This document shows, one piece after another, positions 3,939 through 30,836 of a DNA stretch of 64,000 nt. Both the position numbers and the translations under genes were made by a program. The first letter of the stretch is position 1. Each line of letters begins with the position of its first letter. A model generated the notes under the pieces. That model did no database searches. It was not told the DNA's origin and worked only from the letters and a program-made list of their open reading frames with translations. Source of the stretch: Candidatus Poribacteria bacterium (GTDB lineage Bacteria > Poribacteria > WGA-4E > GCA-2687025); NCBI GenBank assembly GCA_028818695.1, contig JAPPNK010000018.1, positions 1 to 64,000 of the forward strand, written 5' to 3'.

Positions 3939-4709
3939 TCAGCGAATGCATAAAGCGTCCGAAAGAGCGCGCAGTTCCTCCATACTCAACGTCTCGCCTC
4001 GGCGGCTGTCGTCAATGCCGGCTTCGCGCAGCGCCTCGATCCGATTTGGGAAACGGCTTTTTAAAGCGTTCCGCAGCGTCTTGCGCCGTTGACCAAACGC
4101 CGCGCGCGCCGCCGCAAAAAAAACCTCTTCGTCCAGAGGTTGGACCCGCGGTTCCTTCAAAGGCTTCAAGCGAAACACGGTCGACCAGACCTTTGGGCGC
4201 GGCGTGAACGCTCCAGGGCCGACATCGAAGAGCGTCTTCACCTCAAAATAGTAATGCACAAAAACGGAGATGGAACCGCAGCCTTTCTCGCCTGGCGCCA
4301 GAGCCGCACGGCGCGCAAACTCGCGCTGCGCCATGAGCGTCGCCGACGTACACATGGAACGGTGCTGAACGAGCCACTCTATAACAGGCGTCGTGATATG
4401 GTACGGCAGATTTCCGATCACAGGTCCCGGCGCCTTCAGCAGCGTTGGCAGGGGCGTTTTTAAGATGTCCGCATGGACAACCTCAACATTCTCCATGTCT
4501 CTCAACGACTCCAAGAAAGAGTCGTCAATCTCGACTGCAACAATTCTGCCGCCGGGGCGGACGCGCTCCGCCAAGACGCGCGTCAAGCCGCCGGAACCCG
4601 CCCCAATCTCAACCGCCTCCGTCCCCGGCGACAGCCCCGCCGCCTCTGCGATACGGTTCAATACGCCAGGGTCGCGCAAAAAATGCTGGCTAAGGCGCTT
4701 TTTTGCCAA
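3939..4709 (-). CDS. rsmA: 16S rRNA (adenine1518/1519-N6)-dimethyltransferase
   Basis: RsmA (KsgA) dimethylates two adjacent adenines near the 3' end of 16S rRNA during small-subunit maturation. The start QHFLRD is typical. EIGAGSGGLT (about residues 35-43) is the SAM-binding motif I, and NLPYHI (Asn100 to about residue 105) is the N6-adenine methyltransferase motif IV. The length of 256 residues is normal. The start is TTG at 4709-4707, with an AGAGGCGGA ribosome-binding site before it; no in-frame ATG precedes the conserved KKRLSQHF. It follows the SMP-30-like gene by 15 bases, so it probably belongs to the same leftward transcript. Confidence 0.95.
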   Translation of the reverse strand: MAKKRLSQHFLRDPGVLNRIAEAAGLSPGTEAVEIGAGSGGLTRVLAERVRPGGRIVAVEIDDSFLESLRDMENVEVVHADILKTPLPTLLKAPGPVIGNLPYHITTPVIEWLVQHRSMCTSATLMAQREFARRAALAPGEKGCGSISVFVHYYFEVKTLFDVGPGAFTPRPKVWSTVFRLKPLKEPRVQPLDEEVFFAAARAAFGQRRKTLRNALKSRFPNRIEALREAGIDDSRRGETLSMEELRALSDALCIR

Positions 4710-4724
4710 ATCCGCCTCTCGCTC

Positions 4725-5618
4725 TCAAAGCAGATACCCCTGCTGAACCGCTCCGTCCGACGGATAGATCAGAAAGCCGCGCAGGTCCGTCTCCGCGCGG
4801 TAGAGGCATCCGCCCGCCGTCACATACAGCGTCTGCAGGTCGTCCCCTCCCCATGTGCAGTTGGTCGGCTTCGCCTCGATCGGATGCGTTTCAAGGACGC
4901 GCCCTGACGGCTCAAACACATAGATCATCGGTCCTGGGCCCGATTCCTCCCAGCCCGCTGTCGCCACGATGCGCCCCTCCGAGTCCAAACACATTCCGTC
5001 GATGCCGCGGTGCGGGTAGAAGTTATGCAGCGTCTCATACTCGCCGACGGAGCCGTCCTCCAAAATCGGATAGGCGCGCAGCTCGCGGGGCCGCCCTTCG
5101 CCATATTCGCTCTGCGCCACATACAGCGTCTTGCAGTCGGGCGACACGAGCAACCCGTTCGGCTTCGTTGTGTCAAAGGAGGCGCGGGTCAAGCTCCATG
5201 CCCCGCCGTCCGCGGGATCGCACCGGTACACCGACTGATGCGTCAACTCTAGGTCGTCTTCGGCGCCGTAGCGCGGGTCGGTGAACCAGAGCCTTCCCGC
5301 TGAGTCGAATGCAAGGTCGTTTGGGCTGTTGAACCGCTTGCCTTCATACCGGTCGACAATTGAGACGGTTCTTTCCCCGTCATACAGCGCAATGCGCCGC
5401 CCGCCGCCTTCGCATGCAAACAGGCGCCCCGACTGGTCAAACATCAGCCCGTTTGCCTGCTGCGTGCCGGTTCGCGCCTCCGCCGTTTCGCCGGTCGACG
5501 GGTCGTAACGCATGATGCGGCTGTTCGGTATGTCCGTAAAAAGAACGCCTGCCCCGTCCCAAGCGGGTCCTTCGGTGAAGGCAAAAGGTCCCGCGACACG
5601 TTCAAATTGCCAACTCAA
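4725..5618 (-). CDS. SMP-30/gluconolactonase-like six-bladed beta-propeller
   Basis: The 297-residue protein belongs to the SMP-30/gluconolaconase/LRE family, whose known members hydrolyse sugar lactones such as glucono-1,5-lactone. It has no signal peptide, so it is cytoplasmic. FTEGPAWD near residue 15, the NSPNDLAFD block and YPHRGIDGMCLD carry the family's metal-binding Glu, Asn and Asp. The start is TTG at 5618, three bases after the stop of the upstream hydrolase. A strong GGAAGG ribosome-binding site sits inside the end of that gene, and the nearby ATG is out of frame. The coupled layout suggests co-translation with the hydrolase. The true lactone is unknown. Confidence 0.87.
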   Translation of the reverse strand: MSWQFERVAGPFAFTEGPAWDGAGVLFTDIPNSRIMRYDPSTGETAEARTGTQQANGLMFDQSGRLFACEGGGRRIALYDGERTVSIVDRYEGKRFNSPNDLAFDSAGRLWFTDPRYGAEDDLELTHQSVYRCDPADGGAWSLTRASFDTTKPNGLLVSPDCKTLYVAQSEYGEGRPRELRAYPILEDGSVGEYETLHNFYPHRGIDGMCLDSEGRIVATAGWEESGPGPMIYVFEPSGRVLETHPIEAKPTNCTWGGDDLQTLYVTAGGCLYRAETDLRGFLIYPSDGAVQQGYLL

Positions 5619-28453: not shown

Positions 28454-28593
28454 GGGGGTCTCCTTTAGAGGTTGCCGTTTTCATTGATCAACTTTACAGC
28501 TGTTTGGGCTGCAGGTCAACCGGCGCGTTTGACATTGCCCTTTAAGTTTGGACATCGCAATGAACAGCGCGCAAGCTGCCGCGTCCTAAAAAA

Positions 28594-28624
28594 TTGGACG
28601 CCTGCGCAGTCCGTACCGTATGAT
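28594..28624 (+). promoter_or_regulatory. Promoter-like sequence of Y-like RNA unit 1
   Basis: TTGGAC and TATGAT are separated by 19 bases. The same arrangement is kept at 28779 and 28983. The -10 lies six bases before the hairpin GCCGAG, so transcription would begin at the base of the RNA stem. Confidence 0.55.
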
Positions 28625-28630
28625 ATAAAT

Positions 28631-28692
28631 GCCGAGGCGATGGTCGATGGTTACCGGAAGATTCCCGTCGTCCGCTCCTTTCTCGGCGTTCT
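28631..28692 (+). ncRNA. Y RNA-like small RNA, unit 1
   Basis: GCCGAG (28631-28636) pairs with CTCGGC (28682-28687). Above it, GCGATGG faces CGCTCCTTT, and CGATGG pairs with CCGTCG. The apical loop begins GGTTACC. The unit is one of three tandem copies before the Ro60 gene, and its stem resembles the Ro-binding stem of Y RNAs. Unlike the downstream RNA it has no tRNA-like module. Confidence 0.6.
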
Positions 28693-28778
28693 TCATGGCG
28701 TTGGCGCGCGTTTCAGCGCGTCTTGCGGAGCCTTCGCCGCTCTGTCCGCTGTCCGTTCAAAAGATTCTTTAACTTTAA

Positions 28779-28809
28779 TTGGACGCCTGCGCAGTCCGTA
28801 CCGTATGAT
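28779..28809 (+). promoter_or_regulatory. Promoter-like sequence of Y-like RNA unit 2
   Basis: TTGGAC and TATGAT with a 19-base spacer, identical in arrangement to unit 1. Confidence 0.55.
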
Positions 28810-28817
28810 AGAGAAGC

Positions 28818-28897
28818 GTCGAGGCGATGGACGATGGTTACCCCTATAAAGGGAGCAATCCCTCGTTCCCGTCGTCCGCTCCTTTCTCGGCGTTTTT
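28818..28897 (+). ncRNA. Y RNA-like small RNA, unit 2
   Basis: GTCGAG pairs with CTCGGC (one G-U pair replaces G-C of unit 1). GGACGATGG pairs with CCGTCGTCC without mismatch apart from one G-U. The loop starts TTACC and contains an extra GGGAGCAATCCC hairpin. CTCGGC is followed by GTTTTT, a possible 3' end. Confidence 0.62.
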
Positions 28898-28982
28898 CAT
28901 GGCATTGGCGCGCGTTTCAACGCATCTTGCGGGGCCTTCGCCGCTCCGTCCGCTGTCCGTTCAAGAAATTTTTTAACTTTAA

Positions 28983-29013
28983 TTGGACGCCTGCGCATTC
29001 CGTACTGCATAAT
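28983..29013 (+). promoter_or_regulatory. Promoter-like sequence of Y-like RNA unit 3
   Basis: TTGGAC and CATAAT with a 19-base spacer. Because this unit ends just before the Ro60 gene, the same promoter could also drive that gene. Confidence 0.5.
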
Positions 29014-29021
29014 GTAACGAC

Positions 29022-29083
29022 GCCGAGGCGATAGACGATGGTTACCTGTTATGTCCCGTCGTCAGCTTCTTTCTCGGCGCGCA
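29022..29083 (+). ncRNA. Y RNA-like small RNA, unit 3
   Basis: GCCGAG (29022) pairs with CTCGGC (29073-29078). GACGATGG pairs with CCGTCGTC. The GGTTACC motif follows the stem, as in the other copies. It ends 27 bases before the Ro60 start codon, so it could be a free RNA or the leader of the Ro60 mRNA. Confidence 0.55.
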
Positions 29084-29109
29084 TTAAATAAGCGTAAAGG
29101 GGGGGATCC

Positions 29110-30705
29110 ATGAAAGAACTGAGGAATGCGCTAGGGCCGGTTCCGCAGAAAGAGCCAATCCCCGGCCGAGAGGCGGACATGGCGCGCAACAACGCGGGCG
29201 GCTTCGCCTTTCTGGTCGACAAATGGACGCAGCTGGACAGGTTTCTCATACTCGGAACCGCCGGCGGAACCTACTATGTTGGAGAGCGCGAACTGACCCT
29301 GGAAAACGCCGAATGCGTCAAGGAGTGCGTCGCCGAGGACGGCCTGCGCGCTGTTGAGCGCATCGTCGACATCTCCGACAGCGGGCGCGCCCCGAAGAAC
29401 GATCAAGCAATTTTTGCGCTCGCCATGTGCGCCTCATACGGGGACGTCGAAACAAAGAAAGCGGCGCTTGAGGCGTTGCCGAAGGTGTGTCGAATCGGAA
29501 CGCATCTGCTCATGTTCACCGCGTTTTTGAAAGAGATGCGCGGCTTCGGGCGAAGCGTCAAGCGCGCCCTCGGACGCTGGTATACCAGCAAGGAGCCAAA
29601 CAAGCTGGCGGAGCAGGTCATGAAGTACCGCAACCGCCATGGCTGGACGCACCGCGACATTCTGCGGCTTGCGCATCCGCGCGGGCCGTCGATCGGCGCC
29701 GAAGTGAACGACGTCTTCAACTGGGTCGCGCAGCCTGACGAGCATGAGGTCGGCGAGTCGACGCCGGCGGCGCTTGCCGCGTTTTTGGAATTGCAGACGG
29801 CGTCCGATTCGGCGCAGGCGGCGCGCCTGATTGCTGAAAACCCGGCGCTGTCGCATGAGATGGTCCCGACGCATCTGAAAGACGCGCGTGTCTGGCAGGC
29901 GATCCTGGAGCGCGGCCTCGGCATGACGGCGCTCATCCGCAACCTGCCGACGATGACGCGCGTCGGGTTGCTGAAGCCGATGTCGCGCCACGCGCAGCTG
30001 GCGGCGGAGCGGCTCGCCGACCAGGACGCGCTCAAACGGCAGCGCGTTCATCCGATCAACCTGCTCATCGCCTACCGAACCTACGCAGCCGGCAAGTCGA
30101 TTCGCGGGACGGCGACGTGGGAGCCGACGCAGGAAATCGCGGAGGCGCTGCAGGCGGCGTTTTATGCGGCGTACAACAGCCTTGAGACGCTGCCGAAGCG
30201 CGTCTATGTCGGCGTCGATGTGAGCGGATCAATGGGGCATGCGCATCTTTGCGGCGTCCCCGGGTTCTCGCCGAGGGTCGCGGCGGCGGCTCTGGCGGTC
30301 TGCTATGCGCGGCAGTTTGAGCGGGCGGCAGTGTTCGGCTTTTCAGACAGGATGAAAGACCTGCAGATCGGGGCTAAGACCTCCATCGAAACGGCGATGG
30401 AACGCGCAGACGCGATGGACTTCGGCCGCACCGACTGCGCCATGCCGATGATCCACGCGACGGCGGAAAACATAGAGGCAGACGCCTTCGTCATTTTGAC
30501 CGACAACGAAACATGGGCGGGCGATGTACATCCCGCCGAAGCGCTGCGCGACTACCGCCGGCGCACGGGAATCGGCGCGAAGCTGCTTGTATGCGGAATG
30601 GCTTCAAACGGCTTTTCGATTGCGGATCCGCAGGACGGCGGAATGCTGGATGTGGTCGGCTTCGACACGGCGGTTCCGCGGCTGATGGACGATTTTTTGT
30701 CCTGA
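29110..30705 (+). CDS. rsr: Ro60/TROVE-domain RNA-binding protein
   Basis: The 531-residue protein is a bacterial Ro60 orthologue. The N-terminal TROVE domain of helical repeats is recognised by NNAGGFAFLVDKWTQLDRFLILGT and APKNDQAIFALAM. The C-terminal von Willebrand A domain has an intact metal site DVSGSMG (370-376). Ro60 is a ring that binds the ends of misfolded RNA in its hole and Y RNA on its outside. In bacteria it works with exoribonucleases such as PNPase in rRNA maturation and stress decay. The ATG has GGGGGGAT upstream. It is flanked by Y-like RNA genes on both sides. No RtcA/RtcB repair genes are adjacent. Confidence 0.95.
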   Translation: MKELRNALGPVPQKEPIPGREADMARNNAGGFAFLVDKWTQLDRFLILGTAGGTYYVGERELTLENAECVKECVAEDGLRAVERIVDISDSGRAPKNDQAIFALAMCASYGDVETKKAALEALPKVCRIGTHLLMFTAFLKEMRGFGRSVKRALGRWYTSKEPNKLAEQVMKYRNRHGWTHRDILRLAHPRGPSIGAEVNDVFNWVAQPDEHEVGESTPAALAAFLELQTASDSAQAARLIAENPALSHEMVPTHLKDARVWQAILERGLGMTALIRNLPTMTRVGLLKPMSRHAQLAAERLADQDALKRQRVHPINLLIAYRTYAAGKSIRGTATWEPTQEIAEALQAAFYAAYNSLETLPKRVYVGVDVSGSMGHAHLCGVPGFSPRVAAAALAVCYARQFERAAVFGFSDRMKDLQIGAKTSIETAMERADAMDFGRTDCAMPMIHATAENIEADAFVILTDNETWAGDVHPAEALRDYRRRTGIGAKLLVCGMASNGFSIADPQDGGMLDVVGFDTAVPRLMDDFLS

Positions 30706-30720
30706 CGAAATGAGATGAGA

Positions 30721-30836
30721 AGGGCGGGGCGAATGCGGTTGGTTACCGGTCGCAGGTTCGAATCCTGCCGTTCGCGTCAGCGGGCGTAGCTCAGGGGTAG
30801 AGCGTTTTTTCCGACGGCAATCCACTTCCCCGCCTT
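30721..30836 (+). ncRNA. yrlA: YrlA-type Y RNA with circularly permuted tRNA-like module
   Basis: The T-arm GCAGG-TTCGAAT-CCTGC (30752-30768) comes first. CGTTCGC (30769-30775) follows, then GTCA, then GCGGGCG (30780-30786), which pairs with it as a seven-pair acceptor stem. TA and a D-arm GCTC-AGGGGTA-GAGC (30789-30803) come last. The order is reversed from a tRNA, so this is a permuted tRNA mimic with the acceptor stem closed by a tetraloop. Outside it, GTTGG pairs with CCGAC, TGC with GCA, and GGCGGGG (30723-30729) with CCCCGCC (30828-30834), forming one long stem. It begins about 16 bases after the Ro60 stop. Confidence 0.85.

Follow-up and report, generated by a model that had tools for sequence, protein, structure and literature searches.

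The stretch of DNA analysed here (the window) comprises the first 64,000 nt of contig JAPPNK010000018.1 of a Candidatus Poribacteria genome. It carries a Ro60 (Rsr) gene, three hairpins upstream of this gene that are predicted to be short Y RNAs, each with a promoter-like site of its own, and, behind the gene, an element that is almost certainly a YrlA-type Y RNA (Table 1). Judged by its sequence, the open reading frame is a genuine Ro60: it matches the Pfam families vWA_Ro60 (E 2.2e-57) and TROVE (E 5e-43) and aligns with the Rsr of D. radiodurans (PDB 2nvo) at E 2.4e-113. The YrlA-type element begins 16 nt past the Ro60 stop codon (30705), in agreement with the original prediction for this locus, which had placed it directly downstream of Ro60. 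That prediction saw one of the four predicted Y RNAs; the YrlA was found and the three short Y RNAs upstream of Ro60 were missed.

Table 1. Features of the Ro60 locus in the window; RNA elements and promoter-like sites are predictions.
Feature	Position	Strand	Basis
Promoter-like site of short Y RNA 1, TGGACG-18-TATGAT	28595..28624	+	site scan; repeated unit D3
Short Y RNA 1, no tRNA module	28630..28688	+	repeats, R2 top three, pair covariation, fold
Promoter-like site of short Y RNA 2, TGGACG-18-TATGAT	28780..28809	+	repeats, site scan
Short Y RNA 2, no tRNA module, longer loop	28817..28892	+	repeats, R2 top three, pair covariation, fold (z -4.26)
Promoter-like site of short Y RNA 3 and Ro60, TGGACG-18-CATAAT	28984..29013	+	repeats, site scan
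Short Y RNA 3, no tRNA module	29021..29079	+	repeats, R2 top three, pair covariation, fold
Ro60 (Rsr) gene, TROVE and vWA domains	29110..30705	+	Pfam; PDB 2nvo; alignment with relatives
YrlA-type Y RNA, whole structured element	30722..30835	+	model R1, RF02553, fold
Y stem 5' strand: 8-bp outer helix, bulged C30730, GA, inner helix	30722..30742	+	fold
T-arm GCAGG-TTCGAAT-CCTGC, GGTC just before	30752..30768	+	fold; near-invariant in 17 relatives
Acceptor stem as closed hairpin, CGTTCGC-GTCA-GCGGGCG	30769..30786	+	pair probability 0.95-1.0
TA and D-arm GCTC-AGGGGTA-GAGC	30787..30803	+	fold; TAGCTCAGNGGTAGAGC common to relatives
Y stem 3' strand, unpaired CACTT facing the bulged C	30811..30835	+	fold

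The minimum-energy fold of the YrlA-type element confirms the order of parts that had been proposed for it, i.e., T-arm, 3' acceptor strand, GTCA loop, 5' acceptor strand and D-arm, and the loops TTCGAAT and AGGGGTA are present in the T-arm and in the D-arm (which alone occupies 30789-30803), respectively. All seven acceptor pairs form, as predicted, between CGTTCGC (30769-30775) and GCGGGCG (30780-30786) around GTCA (30776-30779), five of them Watson-Crick and two G-U. The GGTC 5' of the T-arm lies at what we take to be the variable-region position of a tRNA, and the TA 5' of the D-arm presumably corresponds to tRNA positions 8-9. The closing stem with inner helices that had been proposed is also recovered: the outer stem pairs 30722-30729 with 30828-30835, and the inner helices, broken by small mismatches, pair 30731-30742 with 30811-30822. 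The resulting basal stem unites the 5' and 3' ends of the element and has the bulged C30730 opposite CACTT; its 5' strand, with pair probabilities of 0.83-1.0 and a bulged-C layout common to the short Y RNAs, would be the Ro60-binding part. Folding energy alone is weak proof of such a structure because it is only modestly better than that of shuffled sequences (z -2.1 to -2.2, with 3-4 of 200 shuffles folding equally well). The order of the tRNA parts seems circularly permuted because the Y stem replaces the missing anticodon arm. The original prediction was right about this permutation, although the arrangement is the standard architecture of YrlA (RF02553; PDB 6CU1), a known trait of the whole family, and not a novelty of this locus.

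Rfam searched at its gathering scores gave no match at the place of this element, an outcome that, taken alone, would have led to its wrongful dismissal. The YrlA covariance search that the original prediction had proposed aligned RF02553, the Rfam YrlA family, with it from end to end (model positions 1-114 of 114) at 41.5 bits and E 3.8e-7, which falls short of the gathering score of 69 bits, a cut-off set by curators and not a biological feature. Ro60-linked YrlAs of Methylobacteriaceae, Chloroflexota, Actinomycetota, Verrucomicrobiota, Armatimonadota and Acidobacteriota score 32-58 bits with RF02553, and none of those scored reaches 69 either, so that the low score is a trait of a narrow model and not of the locus; the cut-off does not discriminate beyond the core group of the model. 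The score on its own is not decisive, because RF02553 also fires on adjacent tRNA genes. It matches in 76 of the 84 genomes of the phylum and in 9 of 14 control genomes, and the seven matches far from Ro60 that were fetched all turned out to be tandem tRNA genes. The wide distribution of RF02553 matches in the phylum was for this reason rejected as evidence, and only Ro60-linked matches were used.

Since RF02553 is indecisive in the face of such tRNA decoys, a separate covariance model (R1) was built from 17 YrlA copies located just upstream of Ro60 in Ca. Poribacteria; the window was excluded from it because a MAFFT alignment that included the window misplaced its 3' strand. R1 finds precisely the element of Table 1 at 57.5 bits (E 1.5e-13), without a non-standard pair and as its sole match in the 64 kb, and this is also its best match across the whole 3.57-Mb genome. 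The probability that we are dealing with an ordinary-tRNA decoy, in which the 3' half of one tRNA and the 5' half of the next mimic a T-arm, acceptor strands and a D-arm, is practically negligible: both models do respond to tandem tRNA pairs, but the decoys tried reached at most 42.7 bits with R1 and ~38 bits with RF02553, neither ARAGORN nor the Rfam tRNA model reports a tRNA at 30721-30836 or next to it (as had been anticipated for ordinary tRNA models), the cloverleaf with anticodon arm that marks an ordinary tRNA or a tandem pair is absent from the locus, with no anticodon arm on either side of the element, and the outer stem and the linkage to Ro60 are conserved.

This conservation is seen in the Ro60 loci of relatives, which were found by an alignment query of genome contigs, a single-protein query having given no relative. 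Each of the 13 Ro60 loci examined in Ca. Poribacteria has one or two YrlA units just upstream of the gene. In other phyla and in viral contigs, 93 Ro60 loci yielded 104 R1 matches with E up to 0.1, all but one (103/104) on the Ro60 strand. When 46 YrlA copies are aligned (alignment A6), 96.8% of the cells form standard pairs, helices 1 and 2 of the basal stem covary, and each of the 8 acceptor pairs in the family alignment shows two-sided changes. The covariation score is 0.747, where shuffles reach 0.199 and slid structures 0.09-0.12; the alignment was fitted to the structure of the model and is thereby biased towards it, but the margin is still large. The original prediction had named a significant covariance-model score and conservation of the paired positions in relatives among the points on which it could fail; the R1 match is highly significant and 28 of the 31 pairs change on both sides. 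With independent covariance models, covariation across phyla and conservation of the locus in agreement, the element passes every YrlA test run except the numerical cut-off of Rfam, and its assignment as a YrlA-type Y RNA seems nearly certain. Among the Poribacteria, one Y RNA (L056:5766-5961, minus strand; G046 contig C70) has two tandem tRNA-like modules inside one stem, and the Ro60 gene adjoining it is broken by an in-frame stop; a search of 109 further Ro60 loci gave no other double-module Y RNA.

A permuted tRNA gene of the kind known from some algae and archaea would present its parts in this order, too; its transcript would be cut within the GTCA loop and its ends sealed at the anticodon to yield a functional tRNA. 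That the element is such a gene is highly improbable: it has neither an anticodon nor a stem-loop for one, the interval between D-arm and T-arm forming a bulged-C Y stem, it encodes no CCA, and the homologues adjoin Ro60 and match YrlA. An improbable explanation, too, is that the element acts in cis, as a structured 3' UTR or as a processing or termination element of the Ro60 mRNA, without giving rise to a free RNA. Its start so close to the Ro60 stop codon with no predicted promoter of its own, and the pyrimidine-rich stretch that follows its long GC-rich outer stem, would fit such a role. However, in the relatives one or two separate units of the same RNA precede Ro60, so that its place with respect to the mRNA varies, and homologues in other bacteria have been reported as free RNAs (PMC8394870). 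For the YrlA-type Y RNA that we prefer, the same short distance from the stop codon and the lack of a promoter-like site ahead of it in the site scan of the region suggest that it is probably transcribed together with Ro60 and then trimmed.

The three short hairpins and their promoter-like sites form three tandem units at 28592-29079, with start-to-start distances of 185-187 and 204 nt. Six promoter-like sites were found in the region where 0.6 are expected, and the second hexamer of each unit's site ends 5 to 7 nt before the hairpin. Each of these hairpins folds into a helix of 7-8 bp (6-8 bp over all the short Y RNAs folded) with one bulged C, followed by a short GA helix; the small bulge on the opposite strand measures 3 nt in most of the short Y RNA folds (in the window, in the first two copies). 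The YrlA downstream has the same 5' strand (GGCGA...GGTTACC). No Rfam family matched the window's short hairpins; in Poribacteria relatives a homologous hairpin, GCGGGCCGAAGTATTGCGTTACC...CCTTGCCCGC, is situated between YrlA and Ro60. A model made from six of these homologous hairpins (R2) gives those of the window the top three places out of 26, although at E-values that are weak (0.013, 0.054, and 0.56), while the scores of a joint model (R3) on them arise by construction, since R3 includes the window copies. In the nine short Y RNA copies 98.5% of the cells are paired and 7 of 16 pairs have changed on both sides; two-sided changes affect 21 cells (mean of shuffles 7.0, 0/500 shuffles as high, slid structures 0-3), but they represent few independent events because they mostly separate the window from genomes of the Ca. 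Poribacteria genus g6. The R3 hairpin occurs in 10 of 12 genomes with Ro60 and in none of 46 without it, a co-occurrence that likewise does not comprise many independent events because the genomes with Ro60 are mostly of one genus. Around the Ro60 genes of other phyla, every R3 match up to E 1 is on the Ro60 strand (67 including the three of the window). The three copies combine a bulged-C stem, a short bulge opposite, adjacency to Ro60 and covariation, the features that characterise short bacterial Y RNAs, and on these sequence characters they are assigned to that class.

The third hairpin likely lies in the Ro60 leader, because it ends only 30 nt before the ATG; relatives have it at a similar position relative to Ro60, and in the g6 genomes about 20-25 nt separate the end of the homologous hairpin from the ATG. 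A short Y-RNA hairpin ~20-30 nt before the Ro60 start (29021-29110 in the window, and Poribacteria loci L046-L055) may be a site of self-regulation.

The Ro60 gene itself appears to have a history of its own. In a quick tree with long branches, the protein of the window groups with one from the Vicinamibacteria (Acidobacteriota) with a support of 98, apart from the single clade of Poribacteria g6, and five other genomes of the window's own family, some of them incomplete, are without Ro60. Transfer or repeated loss is therefore likely; no part of the YrlA assignment depends on this tree. At the Vicinamibacteria locus with the closest Ro60 (L066), short Y-RNA-like hairpins flank the gene on either side (2849-2922 and about 4690-4760; motif GAGCCGAAG...GGGTTAYC), and no YrlA match was obtained within the stretch examined there. 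The three short Y RNAs with their promoter-like sites and the history of Ro60 are the less usual features of the locus.

In several respects the locus resembles systems that are known already. Salmonella YrlA (PDB 6CU1, cited in PMC8394870) has the standard order of T-arm, acceptor hairpin and D-arm. The YrlA of the window shares with this RNA and with RF02553 its adjacency to Ro60/Rsr, a terminal stem closing these three parts and a length of about 110-120 nt; it differs in its RF02553 score and in lying directly after Ro60 instead of in an rtcBA repair operon. The YrlAs of genus g6 come from the same phylum and have the same module and linkage to Ro60, but they are located upstream of Ro60 and have a longer acceptor loop, and the Ro60 of the window groups with the Vicinamibacteria protein and not with theirs. 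Salmonella possesses a second Y RNA, YrlB, in its rsr-yrlBA-rtcBA operon (PMC9879122), and the short Y RNAs are comparable to it in arrangement and fold, in that the Ro60 locus holds more than one Y RNA and that the additional ones are hairpins with a presumed Ro60-binding stem; in the window, however, there are three tandem copies, upstream of Ro60 and with separate promoter-like sites. The vertebrate Ro60 site consists of a helix of about seven pairs with one bulged C and a 3-nt bulge on the other strand (PMC4726728). This helix, bulged C and 3-nt bulge of the vertebrate Y RNA lower stem and of nematode stem-bulge RNAs recur in the short Y RNAs, the 3-nt bulge in most of them, whereas no replication-type upper stem was recognised in those of the window. 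A short Y-RNA-like hairpin beside the bacterial Ro60 of an uncultured Pedosphaera (Verrucomicrobiota; L141:2828-2897) scores 38.4 bits, at a cut-off of 38, with RF01656, the nematode stem-bulge RNA family ceN72-3_ceN74-2.

In D. radiodurans and Salmonella, Y RNA stems are reported to bind Ro60 and the opposite ends of these RNAs to tether PNPase, which yields a machine that degrades structured RNA (PMC8394870, PMC7790460, PMC4726728); this Ro60/Y RNA/PNPase assembly is termed RYPER. By analogy, the closing stem of the YrlA, with its bulged C and the asymmetric bulge opposite, would be a handle that binds Ro60, and its inner part would be a tRNA body in which the Y stem has taken the place of the anticodon arm and the acceptor has become a closed hairpin. 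The short Y RNAs would have the same handle without the tRNA body. The Y stems may then occupy the outer surface of Ro60 and gate the access of other RNAs, and the tRNA-like module of the single YrlA may dock an effector, for which PNPase, as in RYPER, is the best candidate; the genome encodes a PNPase (891.6 bits). We consider this explanation as a whole, a Ro60-binding YrlA with an effector-docking module accompanied by short Y RNAs, very probable, whereas the chances that tethering PNPase is the main task of YrlA seem about even.

A different partner for the YrlA module is a somewhat doubtful but serious alternative to PNPase. The module could be a competitor for an anticodon nuclease or a tRNA-modifying enzyme, an idea raised in PMC7790460, or a part of RtcB repair. 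According to PMC8394870, both TruB and DusA use YrlA as a substrate, and the genome encodes TruB (238.5 bits), a Dus protein (293.5 bits), and RtcB. Conversely, the effector shown for bacterial Ro60-Y RNA particles is PNPase (PMC8394870, PMC7790460), a nuclease would find no anticodon arm to cleave in YrlA, and RtcB is unlinked to Ro60 here; because its gene is on another contig, the repair-operon arrangement of Salmonella does not apply. Most likely, to go by the systems described above, the short Y RNAs would occupy or gate Ro60 and YrlA would bring an effector, PNPase being the first to be considered. One may go further and envisage a division of labour among the Y RNAs, in which the three promoter-driven short ones serve purely as gates or stabilisers of Ro60, the tRNA mimic made together with Ro60 recruits the effector, and the leader hairpin lets Ro60 bind its own mRNA and so regulate itself, but this extended scheme is speculative and on balance unlikely to hold in full.

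RNAs of this basic kind, permuted tRNA body included, were already known, and the locus is a clear new example of YrlA; since the permuted body is a known YrlA trait, it represents a further example of a known family. It adds the Poribacteria to the phyla with Ro60 and Y RNAs, and our literature search retrieved no paper that names both Poribacteria and Ro60 or Y RNAs. The current Rfam threshold for YrlA misses every Ro60-linked YrlA scored in other phyla, and R1 and R3 are practical finders of such Y RNAs. A locus with four of these RNAs could, finally, be used to test whether Y RNAs with and without a tRNA module do different jobs.
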